Assembly: GCA_022072455.1 (NCBI GenBank)
Contig: JAJVHY010000022.1
Location: 1 to 64,000, forward strand
Origin: Verrucomicrobiia bacterium
GTDB lineage: Bacteria > Verrucomicrobiota > Verrucomicrobiia > Palsa-1439
Reading direction: 5' to 3'
DNA: 64,000 nucleotides
Both the position numbers and the translations under genes were made by a program. This document shows positions 8,100-51,068 of the stretch, piece after piece. Below the pieces are notes generated by a model. The model searched no databases. It saw only the letters and a list, made by a program, of their open reading frames with translations, and was not told where the DNA came from. How positions within the stretch are numbered: position 1 is the stretch's first letter; the number at the start of each line of letters is the position of its first letter.

Positions 8100-9281
8100 A
8101 TGACTGAAACCCACAGTTTCACTTGGCACGATACGGGGCAAAATTGGCTGAATGCGAAACTCCGCGCCATCGCAACGGCCCGGTTGTCGGTGTGCTTGGA
8201 GACGTTCACCTTCCAAGATTCGGACATCGGCAGGCGCTTTCGGGATGCACTGACGGCGGCGGCACGGCGGGGTGTGAACGTCCGTGTGATCGTGGACGCT
8301 TTCGGTTCGTTCGGATTGCGGCGGGATTATTTCGATGAACTGGTGGCGACCGGTGGAGCGATGCGCTGGTTCAATGAACTGCGTCTGGCGTCGTTCTCGT
8401 TCCGGGACCACCGCAAGTTGCTGGTCGTGGACAGCGAGTTAGCATTTGTCGGTGGGTGCAACATTGCCCGGGAATATGACGGCGACGGGATCACGACGGG
8501 CTGGCGCGATGGCGGTGTCAGCGTCCTCGGCCCGGTGGCCGCGGTGCTGGCAGCCGAGTTCGACCAGCAATGGGAACGCGCCACAGCTCGTCGCTGGACA
8601 TTTCCGCCCGGCGGCTTGCGCCAACCTGCCACAAGCGAAGTGGAAGCGTTGTTCATCAAACCCGGCTTTGGCCGCAATCCATTGCGCGACGCCCTGCGGC
8701 GGGATTTGGCGACCGCGCGCGACGTGGCGATCACCGCCGCGTATTTTCTGCCCTCGCACCGACTGCGCCAACGACTCGCGCAAGCCGTGGCCCGCGGCGC
8801 GCGGGTGCGCGTGTTGCTGGCGGGCAAAAGCGACGTTTACCTGATGCAACTCACTTCCCGTTCACTCTACCGGCACCTGGTGCATAAGGGCCTCGAGATC
8901 TGGGAATATCTGCCGCAAGTGTTGCATGCGAAATTGATCATCATGGACGACATCGTGTATGTCGGCTCGTCGAACCTCGACCCGCGCAGTCTGCGGATCA
9001 ACTTCGAGATCATGTTGCGCATCCAGAACTCGGACTTGGCGGCTGCCGCCCGGCAACAGTTTGAAGCCGATTTGGCGCAGCGCGCCATTCCGATCACGCG
9101 CGACGCATTGCAAGCGAGAGGCTCCCGGTGGCTGAGGTTGAAGCAACGGCTGGCCTACTGGCTATTCGCCCGGCTCGATGCCGACGTGGCGGCGCTCAAG
9201 CTGCAGAAATGGCGCCATCGCAAGGCCCGGCTTCTCCACCAGATGAAACGCGTCCGCCATAGCGCGACTCACCCCGCTTGA
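8100..9281 (+). CDS. Phospholipase-D family protein, cardiolipin synthase-like
   Basis: A 393-residue protein with two HKD motifs: H104, K106, D111 (DHRKLLVVD) and H276, K278, D283 (LHAKLIIMD), each followed by the expected VGGCN or VGSSN. This is the layout of cardiolipin synthases (two phosphatidylglycerols, or PG and PE, to cardiolipin). It lacks the N-terminal membrane hairpin of ClsA, so it is closer to the ClsB type. The C-terminal tail is strongly basic (KWRHRKARLLHQMKRVRH), suitable for binding acidic membranes. I prefer the ATG at 8100 to one 81 bases upstream because the family fold starts there. It is divergent from the desaturase gene. Confidence 0.88.
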   Translation: MTETHSFTWHDTGQNWLNAKLRAIATARLSVCLETFTFQDSDIGRRFRDALTAAARRGVNVRVIVDAFGSFGLRRDYFDELVATGGAMRWFNELRLASFSFRDHRKLLVVDSELAFVGGCNIAREYDGDGITTGWRDGGVSVLGPVAAVLAAEFDQQWERATARRWTFPPGGLRQPATSEVEALFIKPGFGRNPLRDALRRDLATARDVAITAAYFLPSHRLRQRLAQAVARGARVRVLLAGKSDVYLMQLTSRSLYRHLVHKGLEIWEYLPQVLHAKLIIMDDIVYVGSSNLDPRSLRINFEIMLRIQNSDLAAAARQQFEADLAQRAIPITRDALQARGSRWLRLKQRLAYWLFARLDADVAALKLQKWRHRKARLLHQMKRVRHSATHPA

Positions 9282-41919: not shown

Positions 41920-42567
41920 TCACGCAATCGGCGTCACGCCGTTGTTACTCACCGCCGCTGCCAACCGGTCAATCGCCTCCGCCATCGTCGCCGGTGGACT
42001 ACCGGCCCAGTGACCGGGATTGCCGGGTGAATACGCGCCGGTACTGAACGCATTCCCGGCCCCGTCCTTCAATGTCCCATCCGCCCACGTCGCCGCCACC
42101 GTCAATCCGTCGTTGCCGATCAACGTCCGCAACTGCGGATTCAGAAACCCCTGCCCCGCCCCGTCGTTGAGTTGCGCCGCGGGATCGTCCACGCCGGGAA
42201 TGTAACCGCGGAACCCGACAATCGGCTGGCCGGCCGCATTGCAGAGGGCATGTTGCGCGGTGTTGAGGACCGGCGTGTTGGTCGCGGCACTGTTCACCGA
42301 GTTTTTTACTCCGACGTGCCCGGCATTCACGATGTCGTGTTCATCGCACAGCACCGCCCCGGTCAAGGGACTCGTCAACGCCGCGTCGAGCCGCGCCTTG
42401 TCGCCGGGCACGAACTGCGCCGCTTCCGACGCCGCGAACACCGGGTCGGTTTCCGGGGTCGGCCCCGGCAGGTTATCAATCAAGTCTTTGAGCCCGGTGA
42501 ATTGGTTGCGCATCTCGGCGGAACTGAGTTCGGAGTGATCGACCGGTAAGAGTGGGTCAAAGGGCAT
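41920..42567 (-). CDS. Protein of unknown function, tail-fibre-like composition
   Basis: A 215-residue protein beginning MPFDPLLPVDHSELSSAEMR followed by QFTGLKDLIDNLPGPTP. Openings of this kind are found in a set of verrucomicrobial proteins next to fibronectin-type genes; I know of no assigned function. The rest is Gly/Ala/Asn/Asp-rich (LCNAAGQPIVGFRGYIPG, GWADGTLKDGAGNAF-like stretches) and resembles phage tail or surface fibre proteins, but no motif proves this. The ATG at 42567 follows a GGAG ribosome site. It is last of three co-oriented genes. Confidence 0.6.
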   Translation of the reverse strand: MPFDPLLPVDHSELSSAEMRNQFTGLKDLIDNLPGPTPETDPVFAASEAAQFVPGDKARLDAALTSPLTGAVLCDEHDIVNAGHVGVKNSVNSAATNTPVLNTAQHALCNAAGQPIVGFRGYIPGVDDPAAQLNDGAGQGFLNPQLRTLIGNDGLTVAATWADGTLKDGAGNAFSTGAYSPGNPGHWAGSPPATMAEAIDRLAAAVSNNGVTPIA

Positions 42568-43065: not shown

Positions 43066-43722
43066 TCACACGGCCATCAGGTTGGCGACATCCGACCAGG
43101 CGCCGTAGCCATCCTTGCCGATGGCCCGGACCCGGAAGTAATACATGGTGCCCGGCGTCAACCCCGGAAAGATGATTTCCGAGGCCTTGGTGGAGAGGAT
43201 GCCGTTCTTCCAGTTGGCCGGGACGTTGGGATCGCCACTGGCGTACTCGCCGATCCAGGCGGTCGCGCCGGTCAGCCGTTTCACCCGGCCGACCACGATG
43301 CCGCTGAGGGTGCCGCGGCGCACCGTCAGCAGCGGGGCCGGCAACGTGTCGCTCTCCGTCGTCACGCCTTGGACGACCGGCTGCCGCAAGTCATAGCCGG
43401 TGGTTTCGAGCATGGCCGGATCGCCGGCGGCTTCGGCGACCGACTCCAAATATGGCGCGAGCCGTTTCAGGATGAGCGTCAACTCCGCCCGGCGCTCATT
43501 GCGGACGGCGATGGCGTGTTTGTCGCCGTTCTCGGCGTCATAGGCGGTCTCGAACGCCGTGAAGGCCGCCGCCAGGTTGGCGCGCGACGGGAACGTGACC
43601 GGCCACGGCTCCGGGAACAAGGTCAGGGCCGGCTCCGAGGTCAGGGAGTTTTCGATGCGTTGCGTCTGCGTGAGGAACTTCGGCAGGTTCAGCCGGTCGA
43701 ACGCGATGATGAGTTTTTGCAT
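43066..43722 (-). CDS. Protein with C-terminal fibronectin type III domain
   Basis: A 218-residue protein. The first half is helical (KLIIAFDRLNLPKFLTQTQR, then AAFTAFETAYDAENGDKHA). The second half is a fibronectin type III module ending PGTMYYFRVRAIGKDGYGAW. Related two-part proteins occur widely in Bacteroidetes and Verrucomicrobiota, with no known role. A strong AGGAAAGGAT ribosome site fixes the ATG at 43722. An in-frame ATG at 43812 would add MRWDTPSYTWDSGLTWDQ, a stretch that might be a separate peptide or an N-terminal extension. It is first of a three-gene set. Confidence 0.65.
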   Translation of the reverse strand: MQKLIIAFDRLNLPKFLTQTQRIENSLTSEPALTLFPEPWPVTFPSRANLAAAFTAFETAYDAENGDKHAIAVRNERRAELTLILKRLAPYLESVAEAAGDPAMLETTGYDLRQPVVQGVTTESDTLPAPLLTVRRGTLSGIVVGRVKRLTGATAWIGEYASGDPNVPANWKNGILSTKASEIIFPGLTPGTMYYFRVRAIGKDGYGAWSDVANLMAV

Positions 43723-44058
43723 ATGGATCCTTTCCTGTGGGCCGATGGGGTTGGGCGGTTGGTCCCAGGTGAGTCCCGAGTCCCAAGTGTACGATGGCGT
43801 GTCCCAGCGCATGAGGATTATCCTCGCCGTCCGGCCAGTCTGCCGTTGAAGAATGTTCGTCGGTAGCGCATCGGCTGCTCCGCATTCCAGAGCAAATGGC
43901 GTGCCATGGCTCGTTCCCACACCACCAGCGCAGGCGGTCCAGCCGCCGAACCGGCTCGCCCGTCACTCTACCCGATGGAGTTCGCGAGCCAGCAGCACCA
44001 CCGAGCGTGGAAACAACCCCACCACACATGAAAAACGGCGCGGTAAGCATGGAAACGA
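43723..44058. other. Gene-poor DNA before the tandem array
   Basis: I find no convincing gene here apart from the possible N-terminal extension of the fibronectin-type protein (to 43812). Near 44005-44058 degenerate pieces of the tandem unit appear (GAGCGTGGAAACAA, then AGCATGGAAACGA), so the array once extended further left. Confidence 0.5.
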
Positions 44059-44359
44059 GACCATCAAGCGTGGTCACATGGTCGACCAAGCTTGGAAACG
44101 AGACCACCACGCGTGGGCGCCTGGTCGACCAAGCTTGGAAACGAGACCACCACGCGTGGACGCTTGGTCGACTAAGCTTTGAAACAAGACCACCACGCGT
44201 GGGCGCTTGGTCAACTAAGCTTGGAAACAAGACCACCAAGCGTGGGCGCTTGGTCAACTAAGCTTGGAAACGAGACCACCACGCGTGGACGCTTGGTCGA
44301 CTAAGCTTTGAAACAAGACCACCCAGCGTGGACGCTTGGTCGACCAAGCATGGAAACAA
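44059..44359. repeat. 43-bp tandem array, seven units
   Basis: Seven head-to-tail units of exactly 43 bases. Each contains a GACCACC start, the palindrome CCACGCGTGG or a one-base variant, TGGTCGACCA or TGGTCAACTA, AAGCTT and a GGAAACGA end. Units 3 (44145-44187) and 6 (44274-44316) are identical. Because 43 is not a multiple of three, reading frames rotate through the array and it is not coding in any simple way. There are no unique spacers, so it is not CRISPR. Confidence 0.93.
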
Positions 44360-44745
44360 TAATAGTTGTCGCGGGTGCAGACGCAGGTGTTTCTCTCACC
44401 GGTGCGCATCGCCGGTGAGAATTCGTCGCAATCTTGCGACTTGGGAAGATCCGCGGTCGACCGAACCTGGCAACTTAAACAGGCGTACCTGTCCGCGCGT
44501 TTTCGCGCACCGGCACTTCGTCCTCGTGAACGACGGTAGAGCCAACGGCTCCCGGCTTTACGGTCTGGCTGACTGCTCACCGCCGACTGCCTTGTCCGCC
44601 AAAGCTTGTCATTCCCTCACGGCCTGCCCGCTCACCTCTCACCGCTGACCTCTGATCGCTAACCGCTGACTGCTCTCCCCCCACATCTATATCGTGTCGC
44701 TATGATTCTTGCCGAATATGCATTGGCTCCTTACACTGCGCGCCC
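44360..44745. other. Gene-free region upstream of the restriction gene
   Basis: No gene is supported in these 386 bases. Two hairpins are plain: TCTCACCGG facing CCGGTGAGA around 44394-44420, then GTCGCAA facing TTGCGAC just after. From about 44565 the DNA becomes a run of short imperfect repeats related to ACCGCTGAC. No clear promoter box for the gene at 44746 could be assigned. Confidence 0.5.
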
Positions 44746-47439
44746 ATGGGGAATCCTGCGACGTTCGTCTCATTCGAGAAGGAACTGAATCGGCTGATTA
44801 TCATCTTCGAGCGTAACTTACCGGCGCTTAAAAGTGCTGGGTATGACGAAGCCAGTCTCCGGCAGGAGTTTCTCAATCCATTTTTCCGCGCTCTTGGTTG
44901 GGATATGGAAAACAAGGCCGGGTTGATACTCGCCCATCGTGAGGTGATCGCCGAAAGTCGGACAGATACGGGCCGAGCTGATTATCTTTTTCAGACCGAC
45001 CGCAAACGTCGTTTCGTCTGTGAGGCGAAAAAACCTGCCGAAGAACTTCACCCGCATGCCCAGCAAGCCAAAGGTTATGCTTGGACAATCGGAGTGCCGT
45101 TCGCTGTACTGACAGATTTTGAAGAACTAAGGATTTACATCGTCGGCAGCGAGCCGGAAGAGGACGAGCCGTTGGTTGGGCTTTGGAAGACCTACCAGTT
45201 CCGCGAGTATCTAGCCAAGGCGCGCGAACTTTGGGATTTACTGGCCCGCGACAACGTGGCCTGTGGCAGTATTGACCGGGCAATTGAGTCGCTACCGAAA
45301 AAACCTCTCCGACTGGGCAAGGGCCAATTTGTTATCCGACCCGACCCGACACAGAGCTTCGACGCCAAGTTCCTTGGCTTTCTCGATGATGCCCGTCGCT
45401 CGCTTGCCTCCGACTTGATCCGTCAGAACGACCGTGCCGATCTGCTGGAAGGCACCCGGCTCAACGATGCCGTCCAATGTATTCTCGACCGCCTCCTGTT
45501 CATCCGCATTTCGGAAGCGCGCGGCATTGACATGGGTACGAAGCTCGAGTCGTTGTTGGAGACTTGGCAGCGGCGGAATGAACAGGCGAATTCCGTGCGC
45601 GAACCGCCGGCCCATTGGGGTGGTGCCGGCTTGAAAGCTCCAAAGGGATCACTGTGGCATGTTATCGTACGCCACAAACGAAAGAAAGATGTGTGCTGGT
45701 TTGACGCCAAGACCAATACACTCCATTTGACCGTCCGGACCAAACGCCGAATACTGCGCGAGACAATTTACGGCGTGGATATTGATCGGCAGGCGGTAGA
45801 AGTGACTCAGCTTTCGCTCTACCTAAAAATGTTGGAAGGCGAGACAAGTGAAACACTCCAACGCGAACAAGATCTATTCGGCGCCGACGAGCCGATTCTT
45901 CCGTCGTTGCAGGAGAACATCAAGAATTTCAATTCGCTGATTGGCCATGACTTTTCCATAATTCCCGAAGATTTGGTACGGGTGAATGCCAAGGACTGGG
46001 ATGTTCAATTCGCATCAATTATGAAGAGCGGCGGGTTTGATGCCGTGGTTGGAAATCCCCCATACATCCGCATTCAGACAATGCAGGAAAGCGATCCGGA
46101 ATCAGTAGCGTACCTGAATCAACACTATACAGCGGCAAAGAAGGGAAACTACGATATCTACGTTTGCTTTGTCGAACGGGTACTTTCACTTGTGAATAAA
46201 CATGGAACGATGGGATTCATTCTTCCGCATAAGTTCTTCAACGCTCAATATGGAGAAGGGCTTCGCGAAGTGATTTCGAATGGGAAGCATCTCCGTCGAG
46301 TTGTGCATTTCGGGCATCAGCAGGTTTTCGAGGGTGCGACGACCTATACCTGTCTATTGTTCCTCGACAAATCACCTCAAGAAAGCTTCACATTTGCATC
46401 TGTCAGTAACTTAGCTACTTGGTCTGAAAAGGGAGTAAGCCAAGAGCGAAAATTTCCACACTCAGACACACAGGCTTCTGAATGGAACTTTAATTCTGGT
46501 CCGGACGCCGGACTTATCGAGCGGCTTTTCAAGCTGCCAGTTAAGCTTTCTGATGTCGCTCACTTGTTTGTCGGACTTCAAACCGATGCTGACGACGTAT
46601 TCATACTCGAATTGGTCAGGCAGTCATCAAACGAACTCGTTTGTTTCTCTAGGGCGACCGAAAAGGAACATAAGTTTGAGCGGGAACACTTGAAACTTCT
46701 CCTGAAGGGCTCACTAAACGTGCGCCGGTACGAGTTGGATTCAGTTACAAAGCGACTGATTTTCCCGTATGAAATTATCGATAACTCCTCGGTCGTGATT
46801 TCAGAAAGAGACTACAAGAAGCGCTTCCCAAAGACCTGGCGCTACTTGGAAGAGAATCGCGGCCGGTTGTCGAAACGGAACAAGGGAAAGCAGCCTGACG
46901 GCTGGCATGGCTATGTGTACAAAAAGAATCACACCCGGCTTGGGAGCCCCAAAATAGTTGTTCCGTCGTTGGGCACAGGAAGTTGCTTCGCATTGGACAG
47001 TACCGGTCAGCACTATTTTGTAGGGAGTGGTGCAGGCGGTGGCGGTGGTTATGGCATAGTACCAACGAACAGTGACATAGGAGACATCCGCTTCCTTCTT
47101 GGATTGCTGAACTCCCGCCTTCTCAGCTTCCTAATTAAGAAAACCTCGACTCCATTTCGCGGCGGCTATATTGCTTTGAATCGCCAATACATTGAGCGAC
47201 TTCCAATTCAACTCGTTGATCTTAAGACAACCACCGGCAAAGGCCAGCACGACAAGCTAGTGGGGCTGGTGGACAAGATGTTGGTATTGACGCCGAAGCT
47301 GCGCGCGGCAAAATCGGACGCGGAGCGCGCGACGTTGCAAAACGCCGTCACCGCCACCGACCGGCAGATTGACCGGCTCGTTTACGAACTGTACGGATTG
47401 ACCGACGAGGAAATTCAACTTGTAGAGGAAACGGCTTAA
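44746..47439 (+). CDS. Type IIG restriction-modification protein lacking methyltransferase motif I
   Basis: An 897-residue fusion of nuclease, methyltransferase and target-recognition parts. The N-terminal PD-(D/E)XK site is D79 in TGRADYLF with E93 and K95 in VCEAKKP. The methyltransferase catalytic motif is VVGNPPYIR (437-440), preceded by LRETIYGVDIDRQAVEVTQL. The SAM-binding motif I (DPACGSGSF type), which should lie about 100-200 residues before NPPY, is absent. The helical domain (250-300) passes almost directly into KRKKDVCWFDAKTNTLHL. Normal members have some 150 more residues here. An internal in-frame deletion near residue 310 (about 45670) explains this. SAM binding, and so methylation, should be lost; nuclease residues remain. 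G+C falls visibly from about 46 kb on. Confidence 0.85.
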   Translation: MGNPATFVSFEKELNRLIIIFERNLPALKSAGYDEASLRQEFLNPFFRALGWDMENKAGLILAHREVIAESRTDTGRADYLFQTDRKRRFVCEAKKPAEELHPHAQQAKGYAWTIGVPFAVLTDFEELRIYIVGSEPEEDEPLVGLWKTYQFREYLAKARELWDLLARDNVACGSIDRAIESLPKKPLRLGKGQFVIRPDPTQSFDAKFLGFLDDARRSLASDLIRQNDRADLLEGTRLNDAVQCILDRLLFIRISEARGIDMGTKLESLLETWQRRNEQANSVREPPAHWGGAGLKAPKGSLWHVIVRHKRKKDVCWFDAKTNTLHLTVRTKRRILRETIYGVDIDRQAVEVTQLSLYLKMLEGETSETLQREQDLFGADEPILPSLQENIKNFNSLIGHDFSIIPEDLVRVNAKDWDVQFASIMKSGGFDAVVGNPPYIRIQTMQESDPESVAYLNQHYTAAKKGNYDIYVCFVERVLSLVNKHGTMGFILPHKFFNAQYGEGLREVISNGKHLRRVVHFGHQQVFEGATTYTCLLFLDKSPQESFTFASVSNLATWSEKGVSQERKFPHSDTQASEWNFNSGPDAGLIERLFKLPVKLSDVAHLFVGLQTDADDVFILELVRQSSNELVCFSRATEKEHKFEREHLKLLLKGSLNVRRYELDSVTKRLIFPYEIIDNSSVVISERDYKKRFPKTWRYLEENRGRLSKRNKGKQPDGWHGYVYKKNHTRLGSPKIVVPSLGTGSCFALDSTGQHYFVGSGAGGGGGYGIVPTNSDIGDIRFLLGLLNSRLLSFLIKKTSTPFRGGYIALNRQYIERLPIQLVDLKTTTGKGQHDKLVGLVDKMLVLTPKLRAAKSDAERATLQNAVTATDRQIDRLVYELYGLTDEEIQLVEETA

Positions 47440-47462: not shown

Positions 47463-48947
47463 ATGAGTGCTATACCAAGCAAACGTCCAACCAAAGTCTA
47501 CTTCTCTGATTTCTTCGACGTTTCGCCAGAATCACTTGCTAAGTATGGTGCATTCAATGTGGCGTGCATAGTAGATCTTCCGCTCTTCGTTGACCCCTTC
47601 CTCCTCTTTACAAGCAGAAAGCCCGAGTACCAAGTTCTGCATGAGGAAATAATTTGTTATCTTAGTTTTCTCCGAGACAAATCAGTTAAAGGTGGAATTA
47701 GCAACGGATTGCTGACCGCTTGGTATTGCTTCCCGGAAGTTCATCAAAACCAACTTGGATTCTGCCTTTCAGGAAACAGAGGCAGAGGGTTAGGAATGGA
47801 TTTCGCTCGGGCCTTGAATGATAACTTGCACAAGTTATTTAGCGATTTTGGGAAGGAAAAGGTAACGAAGGGCTCGCACTTAGAGAAACTCGTGCTCATT
47901 CGAAACCGAGTTGGCCGAGATAATATCAGCGATTTCACCACAAATCTTATCAAGGGCTTCTTGCTCGAATACACACAGCGCTTTGCTCAAAAGCATATTG
48001 ATCCCACCAAGCTTCAAGAAGTAGCAGTGTCCAATACTCGTTTCAATTACACTGCTGGTTCTTGGGAGAGCGCCACGTTCAATCTTCCTTGGCTATTCGG
48101 GGATTACGTCCTGCTGACCCCTGAAGATATCCTAACAAAAGACGATACATGGATTAACAAAGAAGATCTTCGTAAGGACTTCCCGAAGATTAGGGACTCA
48201 ATACCGGACGAAGCTCTACGGGCGCAGATTGATGAGTACTTTAGGAGCGTACTCCCGAAGAAGCCCACAGAAGGCGAGAAAAAGGAAGCGACTGAAAAAA
48301 CTCTCCGACAATTTCACGAGCTCATTGATTATTACATTCGCAACAAAGAAGACAATGGCGCTGAAGCGGTCCGAAAGAGCGCTCAAAAAGTCCAAGAAGT
48401 AGACAATCTTTTCGTCCATAACATTTGCCACCTCATTGAACTAATTGCGGCGAAAAGCCAGTTCTACGGACTACCTGGCAACACATTGTCCGAAACGAAG
48501 CGTAAGATTGAGTATTTGAAACACGTAATCGAAGATCAGGATGGGTATCGAATCTTTTACGTGAAGGGTAAGCCAGTTGAGCGGGAAAAGGATTTACAAA
48601 TCCTTTTCAAGCTAGTTTGGGAGGGCTCTCCAAGCTCTGTTGATGCGGAAGTAAATAACGGTCGTGGCCCTGTTGACTTCAAAGTCTCGCGGGGCTCTGC
48701 CGACAAAACGTTGGTAGAATTTAAGTTGGCTAGTAACAACCAGCTTGAACGCAATCTTGAGAATCAAGTGGCGATTTATGAAAAAGCCAACAAGTCCACG
48801 CAATCCTTCAAAGTCATTCTATTCTTTTCACAAATTGAGCAGGTTAGAGTTCAGGGGATATTGAAACGTCTTCAGGCAACTGAGGCAACCGGTATAATCT
48901 TGATTGATGCGCGACCAGACAACAAACCATCCGCTTCAAAAGCGTAA
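47463..48947 (+). CDS. Uncharacterised protein with a PD-(D/E)XK-like C-terminus
   Basis: A 494-residue protein I cannot assign to a named family. It starts with VYFSDFFDVSPESLAKYGAF; the middle is helical and charged. Near the end NGRGPVDFKVSRGSADKTL, then VEFKLASNNQLERNLENQ, has the D...(E)xK spacing of a restriction-like nuclease core (Asp of PVDFK, Glu and Lys of EFK). A strong AAGGATT ribosome site precedes the ATG 24 bases after the type IIG gene, so the two are co-transcribed. Its base composition is the lowest in G+C of the region, a sign of recent transfer. A role as a partner or second effector in restriction is inferred from position. Confidence 0.7.
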   Translation: MSAIPSKRPTKVYFSDFFDVSPESLAKYGAFNVACIVDLPLFVDPFLLFTSRKPEYQVLHEEIICYLSFLRDKSVKGGISNGLLTAWYCFPEVHQNQLGFCLSGNRGRGLGMDFARALNDNLHKLFSDFGKEKVTKGSHLEKLVLIRNRVGRDNISDFTTNLIKGFLLEYTQRFAQKHIDPTKLQEVAVSNTRFNYTAGSWESATFNLPWLFGDYVLLTPEDILTKDDTWINKEDLRKDFPKIRDSIPDEALRAQIDEYFRSVLPKKPTEGEKKEATEKTLRQFHELIDYYIRNKEDNGAEAVRKSAQKVQEVDNLFVHNICHLIELIAAKSQFYGLPGNTLSETKRKIEYLKHVIEDQDGYRIFYVKGKPVEREKDLQILFKLVWEGSPSSVDAEVNNGRGPVDFKVSRGSADKTLVEFKLASNNQLERNLENQVAIYEKANKSTQSFKVILFFSQIEQVRVQGILKRLQATEATGIILIDARPDNKPSASKA

Positions 48948-49368
48948 CCGCAGCCAACGCACCGGTGGTGCATCCTTACCAACGGCTCGCACTGCGTATC
49001 GCGCATGGCGCGGCTCGCAGCCCACTCAACTGGAGCAAGACACGTTGCTCTGGCCGGAAGCGATTGCAGAAAGCGTCGTTCTCGAAGCGAGCCGGTATCT
49101 TGGCGCGGCCTTGCCGGCGGACTACCCGGCACGGCTGGCGGCCAAAGCGTATTACCTCTACCCGCGCCACCGGCATTTCCACGAAGTCTTGAACCGTCCC
49201 GGCAATCGCGGACGACACAATCTCTACGTCTACATGCGGCATTGGACGGCGAGTTGGCTCAAGCGCGAGCGTTCACCATTGTTTCGTCGGCTCCCATGGG
49301 AATACGCGCTCGGCCGAGCGTTGCCGGTGATGATTTCCGAAAGAGATGCTTCGACACGCTCAGCATGA
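48907..49368 (+). CDS. Small basic protein coupled to the membrane nuclease gene
   Basis: A 153-residue basic protein with no recognised domain. The conserved-looking core is AAKAYYLYPRHRHFHEVLNR, then GRHNLYVYMRHWTASWLKRE, rich in Tyr, His and Arg. Proteins like it occur as small hypotheticals in this phylum. The start is uncertain: the ATG at 48907 overlaps the previous gene by 41 bases, and no ribosome site decides. Its stop overlaps the nuclease ATG by four bases (ATGA). The last codons lie in a repeat also found at 51446. Confidence 0.55.
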   Translation: MRDQTTNHPLQKRNRSQRTGGASLPTARTAYRAWRGSQPTQLEQDTLLWPEAIAESVVLEASRYLGAALPADYPARLAAKAYYLYPRHRHFHEVLNRPGNRGRHNLYVYMRHWTASWLKRERSPLFRRLPWEYALGRALPVMISERDASTRSA

Positions 49369-49370
49369 CA
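49342..49370 (+). repeat. Direct repeat at the left edge of the membrane nuclease gene
   Basis: AGAGATGCTTCGACACGCTC followed by AGCATGACA matches AGAGATTCCTCGATAAGCTC plus GGAATGACA at 51446-51474 in 23 of 29 positions, same orientation. The nuclease ATG (49365) lies within this copy. Confidence 0.6.
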
Positions 49371-51068
49371 CCGGGACGGATACTGTTTGCCGCGTTGCTT
49401 GGCTTGAGCCTGCTCCGAAGCGTTCTCGCCGATGACGTTGTCACATTGAATTCAGGCGAGGCAATTACCGGCCACATTACCTCGGAAACTGGTGCCCAAG
49501 TTGTGATTGATGTACCCAACGCGAGCCGAACGATTTTCACGCCTAGAACAATCTCAAAGTCCGAGATCAAGACAGTCCAGCGCGAGACAGCCGAGGCTAA
49601 ACAGGAACGCCTTGCCTATGAAGCATTGCAGAAGTACCGGCTGAACCCTGATCAAGAGTGGACGGTCGCGCAATACAATGCCGCCCTTGCCGTTTGTCAG
49701 CAATTCCTTGGCCTATACCCCGATGGAGAGCATGCTGCAGCAGTGCGGCAGAAAAACGAGCAGTGTCAGAAGGAGAAGGAGCAGGTTGAGAAGGGTTTGG
49801 TGAAGTTTGACAACCGGTGGATGAGCGCCAGTCAAAAAGCAGCGGAGCGAGAGTTGCGGACTAATTTTGACAAACTGGAGCAGATGGAGCGCAGTGTGGC
49901 TTATCTGGGAAGACAACGGGCGTCGCCCGACAAGATCAGCCGCGCGAAGTCAGATTTGGCGCGAGTCCAACGCGACTATGACAATGCCAAGGCAAAGCGT
50001 GACCAGATCGTAGCCAGTGCAGTTCAGGCACAAAAGACGGCATTAGCCCAAAAGGCGGTGCTGGCGGCGAAAGCGGCAGTTCCGGCACCGCTACCGGTAG
50101 TACAGCCCGCACCGCCGCCGGTAGTGCAGCCGGCCCCGGCTCCGAAGCCGGCCGCAGTTGTCCCGCATCCTACCAATGCCGAGCGCCAGCGCCAGCTTCA
50201 CGAGGCGCGGATTCAGGCAGAAATGAATCGCGTCCGTGAGACGCAAGCCCGGCAACTCCTCCAGCAGAAACAAAATACCGCACGCGGACCGGGGTGGCCA
50301 TATTGGGGACTGGTCGTAGTCGTATTGTTGGTGGGCGGGGCCGTCGCCTTAGTGATGATCAGTTCCGGTCAACTAAGCCCGGCGCGGGGCGCAATTCCTC
50401 CTTACATCCCCACGCCAAAGAGAGCTAACGTCTCGCCCCGTTCTGCATCTCCGCCGCCACTGACTGGCGAGTCGTGGCGTTTTGAAGAAGTCCGGCAGCA
50501 GGAACCTTCGAATCCTGACATGTGTGAGCCGCGCAGTGTTATCGAGAAGCTCAGACGTATTGATTGGTACAAATTCGAGAAGGTCGTTGGTCTGATTTAT
50601 CAATCACAGGGCTATCGGGTCAAGCTACGGGGTGGAGCCAAGGCGGATGGCGGCATTGATTTAGAGGTTCAAAAGGACGGGGACAAGGTTGCGGTTCAAT
50701 GCAAGCACTGGAAGACATATAAAGTGCGATTGCGGGTGGTAAAAGAGCTATTCGCCTCGATGACGGACGAACATTTCTCACGCGGTATGATTGTTGTCCT
50801 CGACAAATTCACGTCGGAAGCGAAAGCGTATGCTATTCAGCATACGATTGACTTTGTGACAGCCGCTGACCTTGAACGGATGATCGCGCAACTCGATTCC
50901 ATCGATCAGCACCGGATACACGCGATGCTGGACGATCCAACGGTGAATTGTCCGAAGTGTGATTCCGTAATGAATTGGAAAGCGCCCCCGCATGGAAAGG
51001 TTTGGAAGCGGAAACCATTCTGGGGATGTACCCGGTTTCCTTCGTGTGACGGTAAGATTGAAGTGTGA
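49365..51068 (+). CDS. Membrane-tethered Mrr-type nuclease with zinc ribbon
   Basis: A 567-residue protein with an unusual order. Residues 1-22 are a signal peptide (RILFAALLGLSLLRSVLADD). Residues 70-230 are a charged coiled coil. A Pro/Ala linker (240-266) and a second helix follow, then a membrane segment at 312-332 (YWGLVVVVLLVGGAVALVMI). The cytoplasmic part is an Mrr-like PD-(D/E)XK nuclease (398-510) with D432 in GGIDLEV and Q445/K447 in VAVQCKHW. It ends in a four-Cys topoisomerase-type ribbon (C529, C532, C555, C561). Mrr nucleases cut foreign or modified DNA, and here the enzyme would sit at the inner membrane with a periplasmic sensor. The start overlaps the preceding stop by four bases. 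Confidence 0.85.
   Translation: MTPGRILFAALLGLSLLRSVLADDVVTLNSGEAITGHITSETGAQVVIDVPNASRTIFTPRTISKSEIKTVQRETAEAKQERLAYEALQKYRLNPDQEWTVAQYNAALAVCQQFLGLYPDGEHAAAVRQKNEQCQKEKEQVEKGLVKFDNRWMSASQKAAERELRTNFDKLEQMERSVAYLGRQRASPDKISRAKSDLARVQRDYDNAKAKRDQIVASAVQAQKTALAQKAVLAAKAAVPAPLPVVQPAPPPVVQPAPAPKPAAVVPHPTNAERQRQLHEARIQAEMNRVRETQARQLLQQKQNTARGPGWPYWGLVVVVLLVGGAVALVMISSGQLSPARGAIPPYIPTPKRANVSPRSASPPPLTGESWRFEEVRQQEPSNPDMCEPRSVIEKLRRIDWYKFEKVVGLIYQSQGYRVKLRGGAKADGGIDLEVQKDGDKVAVQCKHWKTYKVRLRVVKELFASMTDEHFSRGMIVVLDKFTSEAKAYAIQHTIDFVTAADLERMIAQLDSIDQHRIHAMLDDPTVNCPKCDSVMNWKAPPHGKVWKRKPFWGCTRFPSCDGKIEV

Follow-up and report, generated by a model that had tools for sequence, protein, structure and literature searches.

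The 64,000-bp stretch of DNA analysed here (the window) comes from a Verrucomicrobiia bacterium of the Palsa-1439 lineage and corresponds to positions 1 to 64,000 of contig JAJVHY010000022.1 in assembly GCA_022072455.1. The genome comprises 4.82 Mb in 36 contigs, and the window lies on the contig that we refer to as C25. It contains a tandem array in the upstream region of a gene for an fn3-domain protein, with restriction and candidate defence genes as cargo on the other side of the array (Table 1). Tandem Repeats Finder (TRF) gave a period of 43 bp with a 90% match between units and 0% indels, and a repeat search of the window recovered seven in-register copies at 43-bp spacing, which confirmed the seven-unit array of the original prediction. 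A 16-mer core, allowing at most three mismatches, matched the window 10 times, compared with 1.05 ± 1.09 times in 100 shuffles. Because TRF also reported sub-periods of 21 and 22 bp within the array, the 43-bp unit is a doublet of 21+22 bp. Two 64-bp segments separated by three units (44131-44194 and 44260-44323) are identical letter for letter, as had been noted. The palindromes ACGCGT, GTCGAC and AAGCTT, which had been described in each unit, are exact in four, five and six of the seven full units, respectively, and occur as variants in the remainder. As 43 = 14x3+1, the reading frame moves by one per unit, also as originally described, and stops occur across the array in all six frames; the window array is non-coding.

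Table 1 Coordinates of the array and surrounding features in the window
Feature	Position	Strand	Basis or remark
Partner gene (MPFDPLLPVDHSELSS...)	41920-42567	-	Homologues at other loci adjoin the fn3 gene or sit across the array or cargo
fn3-domain gene, array in its upstream region	43066-43920	-	Conserved core 43069-43725; possible start 43812 (MRWDTPSYTWDSGLTWDQ)
Degenerate array flank	44001-44043		Core-like match 44008-44023; homology to the C7:191k copy starts near 43974
Tandem array, 7.3 units of 43 bp (21+22 doublets), dyad-symmetric consensus, non-coding	44044-44357		TRF, repeat search, frame check, dyad test
Conserved tail separating array from cargo	44358-44580	+	Copies elsewhere in this genome
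Stretch ctTGCCGAA..TACACTGC immediately ahead of the type IIG start codon	44708-44739	+	Alignable by eye to the stretch preceding hsdM at C16
Cargo: type IIG restriction enzyme-methyltransferase (Eco57I, TaqI_C)	44746-47439	+	Domain and PADLOC scans
Cargo: PDC-M36A-like candidate defence protein	47463-48947	+	PADLOC
Possible further cargo: open reading frame (ORF) with Mrr_cat restriction endonuclease domain	49005-51068	+	Domain scans

Homologues of the fn3 protein were present in 10 of 39 genomes, including the genome of the window, with arrays of other sequence at the corresponding place. When self-match lags of 10-60 bp were tried upstream of fn3 genes, the best lag was 21, 22, 42, 43 or 44 in 28 of 35 loci (24 at an identity of at least 0.55), and none of 202 other genes at the same loci reached such lags at the 0.55 threshold. 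Named genomes contributed 55 fn3 loci, mostly from Verrucomicrobiota with several from Acidobacteria gp5; a lag of 20-23 or 42-45 at an identity of at least 0.55 was found in 28 of the 47 measurable loci, 11 of the 47 being the same records as in the 35-locus set. With repeated records pooled once, an array with a lag at a multiple of ~21 bp lay upstream of fn3 homologues at 57 of 77 loci (74%) from Verrucomicrobiota and some Acidobacteriota, compared with 11 of 765 control genes (1.4%) from random stretches; this count omits three loci at contig ends and four where no fn3 gene was called on the strand expected. It tested only lags near multiples of 21, at a threshold that we chose (identity 0.55 over 126 bp), and the claim about the period therefore rests on separate lag measurements and surveys. 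Gene calls came from a simple ORF heuristic, and most of the genomes are metagenome-assembled.

Across all fetched sequence, lags at multiples of ~21 bp were found in 22 of 34 intergenic arrays in the fn3 contexts of relatives, 24 of 30 in named genomes and 8 of the 9 in random stretches, the last in 0.80 Mb of control sequence from relatives; 0.40 Mb of control stretches from the window's own genome held one intergenic array. The remaining arrays of the survey include 9-, 14-, 51- and >100-bp repeats. Among the measured loci of named genomes, three from Limisphaerales have a period of 41. Coding heptads were considered as a source of the period (seven codons make 21 bp, and a frame stays open through some 21-bp arrays). 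We rejected them because periods of 22, 41, 43 and 44 exist and every frame of the window array is closed, both of which argue against coding; L095 likewise has none of its six frames open, and no consistent third-codon excess was seen among mismatches.

Only 49 of 1,081 array pairs were similar in sequence, many of them through a single GGACAAA..TTTGTCC-like type. At one orthologous site (L096/L098), where genes correspond on both sides, the fn3 genes are 71%, the inner flanks 78% and the outer genes 69% identical; the arrays, both of period 42, are 40% identical, compared with 39-45% after shuffling. Dyad symmetry exceeded that of column permutations in 21 of 47 array consensuses, column conservation was uneven in 28 of 34 arrays, and the arrays show a strong 21-bp purine/pyrimidine asymmetry. 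Arm pairing, measured in 43 arrays, was 0.554 within units and 0.556 across units, and this equality indicates that there is no compensatory change. The symmetry resides in the consensus, and the arrays therefore look like protein sites rather than hairpins. Selection for hairpins or cruciforms was rejected for lack of covariation, and so was phased A-tract bending, there being no excess 10.5-bp A/T harmonic. We also considered that the array might act once transcribed, as a structured RNA or an array of terminators. RNA folding energy fell below that of column-permuted controls (z < -2) in 27 of 47 arrays in the sense direction and 28 of 47 in the antisense direction, and two terminator-like sites lie inside the window array. 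However, the two strands fold about equally, as those of any palindrome would, the terminator count is not raised (3 versus 2.0 ± 1.8 in shuffles), and Rfam gave no gathering-threshold match in the window. Together with the lack of compensatory change within units, these results make a transcribed role very improbable.

Within its own genome, the array sequence of the window occurs only at C25 and C7, and a search with this DNA in 57 genomes returned a match in its own genome only. At C7:191k the array and tail recur in a short form beside a fragment read as a remnant of hsdM (type I methylase). The tail is whole there (C7:191386-191603, 94%), is represented by its 3' part at C3:406884-406983 (94%) and C16:10378-10472 (91%), and is diverged or cut at C14:859-886. 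At C3:406k and C16:10k it adjoins arrays built of units other than those of the window, and at C14 it follows a 22-bp array resembling that of C3. Part of the fn3 gene and the flank upstream of it match at 96% identity between the window and C14, but the two arrays have nothing in common. C4 and C7:127k have in common a segment of array plus fn3 gene (1192 bp, 98.8% identity) and the partner gene (833 bp, 96.4%), which enclose different 3-kb restriction-modification (R-M) cargo. With near-identical ends and differing R-M systems, these loci (L253 2521-7768 and L254 2658-7680) form a natural cargo-exchange pair. L099, L113, L125 and L117 have no cargo there, and the partner gene is directly on the other side of the array. 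We also observed that C7:191k (L058 10463-13236) retains fragments of the C14 cargo (L092 2569-6888) around other NTPase-like genes, which suggests that defence genes may have been replaced within a cargo. Near the C3 locus there are perfect direct repeats of 36 bp and 21 bp (L059 10149-10240). The 21-bp array at C23 has beside it a C-terminal tyrosine recombinase fragment that, judged by eye, resembles an integron integrase (L255 11349-11624).

Defence genes identified by PADLOC border 8 of the 11 known intergenic arrays of this genome. Besides the type IIG and PDC-M36A genes of the window, these are type I R, M and S genes at C16; a full-length DSR2 (1319 bits) with an HNH gene upstream, and PDC-M19, at C14 (L092 2802-6596), adjoining the 22-bp array; PDC-M30/M41 at C3; PDC-M70A and a methyltransferase at C12; a C5 methyltransferase with a restriction endonuclease and Vsr at C4; a 900-amino-acid methyltransferase at C7:127k; and a type IIG C-terminus at C23. 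The next gene at C7:191k had no match, and the arrays at C23b and C1 lay outside the scan. The 11 do not represent a random sample, since it was mostly the common tail or the fn3 gene that led to them. Ten proteins encoded beyond the fn3 gene, as seen from the array (eight of them from this genome), gave one PADLOC match, a DinG helicase.

Two alternatives bear on these neighbours. The original prediction had offered the array as a possible decoy for the adjacent restriction system, and restriction-type palindromes in most units beside a type IIG gene would fit a decoy or target array. However, the same array type adjoins the hsdM-like remnant at C7:191k, another type adjoins DSR2 at C14 and PDC-M30/41 at C3, most arrays of relatives have no restriction gene alongside, and the palindromes differ at each locus. 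The decoy proposal is therefore not supported and hardly credible. The prediction had also offered a recombination site, and array and tail together could be a hot spot where defence genes enter and are exchanged as cargo, with an integron-like outcome. The different cargo within near-identical flanks at C4 and C7:127k, the array and tail common to C3/C14 and to window/C7:191k in different contexts, the defence genes bordering the arrays of this genome and the integrase fragment at C23 all favour such a platform, but no intact recombinase was noticed at the loci examined, the array lacks defence cargo in most relatives, and the sharing is explained by ordinary homologous recombination between module copies. 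The part of the proposal that holds is that array-bearing modules are common to loci with different cargo; a dedicated platform we consider improbable. Integron platforms carry variable cargo behind a conserved flank. Unlike them, the loci show no intact integrase (one C-terminal fragment by eye, at C23); attC sites were not searched for.

The fn3 gene product consists of a helical half and an fn3 domain. In a fold search, the best matches listed were fn3-domain proteins, and many of those from a viral library are receptor-binding or tail proteins of phages; for the N-terminal helical half, nothing matched clearly. An origin in phages or plasmids was rejected, as neither the fn3-family protein nor the array DNA had a match in phages, plasmids or viral contigs. 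A draw of 240 genomes from the phylum gave 95 with a match to the fn3 profile; among the matches listed, most involved the fn3 domain alone. Full-length copies occur in few genomes, often many per genome. A leader of the form 'LTWDGKD..G.PF.WD..GLTWDG' is kept at many loci, either just upstream of the fn3 core or in frame with it (43730-43815 on the minus strand of the window). In G008:C97 (L112 ~8335-8626, reverse complement), a 21-bp array runs in frame into the fn3 gene and replaces part of its N-terminal half. The stretch shared ahead of the type IIG gene and of hsdM at C16 is possibly a common promoter, a suggestion based on the alignment; the promoter scan found no consensus site at 44708-44739.

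We propose that the array acts in cis, as a series of predicted dimer-type protein binding sites in the intergenic DNA upstream of the fn3 gene. Sites two helical turns apart would all lie on the same face of the DNA. The letters of the array change fast while the spacing and dyad symmetry are retained. A protein assembled along the array may act as a cooperative operator or as an architectural block for promoters on both sides. In this species, the fn3/array/partner module would provide the flank for exchangeable defence cargo (R-M, DSR2 and candidate systems), which probably spreads and is swapped by homologous recombination between module copies. We give this reading as a whole, with helically phased dimer-type sites acting on the region upstream of fn3 and, in this species, defence cargo carried along by the module, a probability of roughly 40%. 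Among the three options of the original prediction, protein binding is the best supported, by the two-turn spacing, the dyads in about half of the arrays and the absence of compensatory changes. With respect to an operator array for a dimeric regulator, dyads beyond permutation were seen in 21 of 47 arrays and uneven columns in 28 of 34.

Known repeat systems share parts of this design. Plasmid iterons are tandem, protein-bound sites of ~17-22 bp at about two-turn spacing. The fn3 arrays have the same 21-22-bp, two-turn spacing, but they are chromosomal and their unit sequence differs at almost every locus; Pfam gave no match to a replication initiator (Rep) among the six window neighbours, those at other loci having been scanned with a defence library only. 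Repetitive extragenic palindromic (REP) elements and REPINs are intergenic palindromic repeats with a common sequence across a genome, which the arrays mostly lack, that of the window being confined to two contigs. Like arrays of clustered regularly interspaced short palindromic repeats (CRISPR), the window array is regular and adjoins defence genes; unlike them, its units abut, with no unique spacers, and the PADLOC scan showed no Cas match for the six window proteins (for one of them, among the best 25 of 59 families). Short non-coding tandem arrays have been described as bacterial intergenic satellites (Subirana and Messeguer 2019, PMC6749651); the available part of that account describes no helical period, single-gene-family association or verrucomicrobial arrays. 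Unstable intergenic tandem repeats occur in lake Planctomycetota, a related phylum (PMC9426551), for which the accessible portion of the report gives no period, dyad or gene family. We found no description of these two-turn arrays of Verrucomicrobiota in the literature searched.

Several observations weigh against the proposed reading. Its chief weakness lies in the variable units, for sites that change from nearly every locus to the next are difficult to reconcile with a regulator acting in trans. Twenty of the 77 fn3 loci have no array, and 26 of 47 arrays show no significant dyad symmetry. A neighbouring fn3 gene was found neither for the array at C3 nor for that at C7:191k, and none was apparent beside the random-stretch arrays inspected. 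Arrays of 21 bp stay in phase with codons, with mixed results in a codon-phase test, and the promoter scan found no sigma-70-type promoter near the window array. Among 49 outer neighbours listed, 30 from relatives were scanned with PADLOC, and the nearest outer gene matched in only three: one match is convincing (PifA, L265), one is a weak PDC-M41A match (L113) and one we take to reflect a shared protease domain (L148). Three loci picked as defence-like by eye, outside this count (L101, L103 and L259) matched HEC-06, type I restriction endonuclease and type I methyltransferase models, respectively. A defence link throughout relatives, which had been expected, was thus not found among the 30 outer genes, and as defence neighbours are rare there, the link is mainly a property of the window's own genome.

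Some of these points would suit neutral minisatellites, produced by slippage or unequal crossing-over with a 21-bp step set by a mutational mechanism and without function. Arrays away from fn3 genes, non-significant dyads in more than half of the consensuses, complete turnover of sequence and nearly perfect recent expansions at some loci (L133 and L148) all agree with such an origin. By contrast, the narrow period near 21 bp among unrelated units, the strong association with one gene family and the uneven columns do not, and 0.20 Mb of Escherichia coli K-12 held three arrays, with lags of 101, 115 and 120, none near 21. The original prediction held that the same array in many unrelated places without gene association would mark a plain minisatellite; similar arrays do occur away from the fn3 gene, but the association with it is strong (57 of 77 loci). 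We regard a neutral origin as possible but doubtful.

Returning to the binding-site reading, a broader form of it, which we think unlikely, is that these arrays are an element class selected for geometry and not for sequence, with units rewritten at each locus and dyad sites re-formed two turns apart, and that the attached phage-tail-like fn3 cassette became a defence-swapping platform in some lineages. Machinery that rewrites or amplifies DNA in steps of ~21 bp is also conceivable. Bacterial repeat families are usually recognised by a common sequence; here the spacing, dyad design and gene context persist instead. Because the array sequence is not kept, annotation that relies on sequence similarity would overlook these arrays. 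Should the array prove functional, it would raise the question of what recognises the geometry of DNA instead of its letters. In this genome the arrays appear to mark sites of defence exchange, and they would offer a route to new defence genes.
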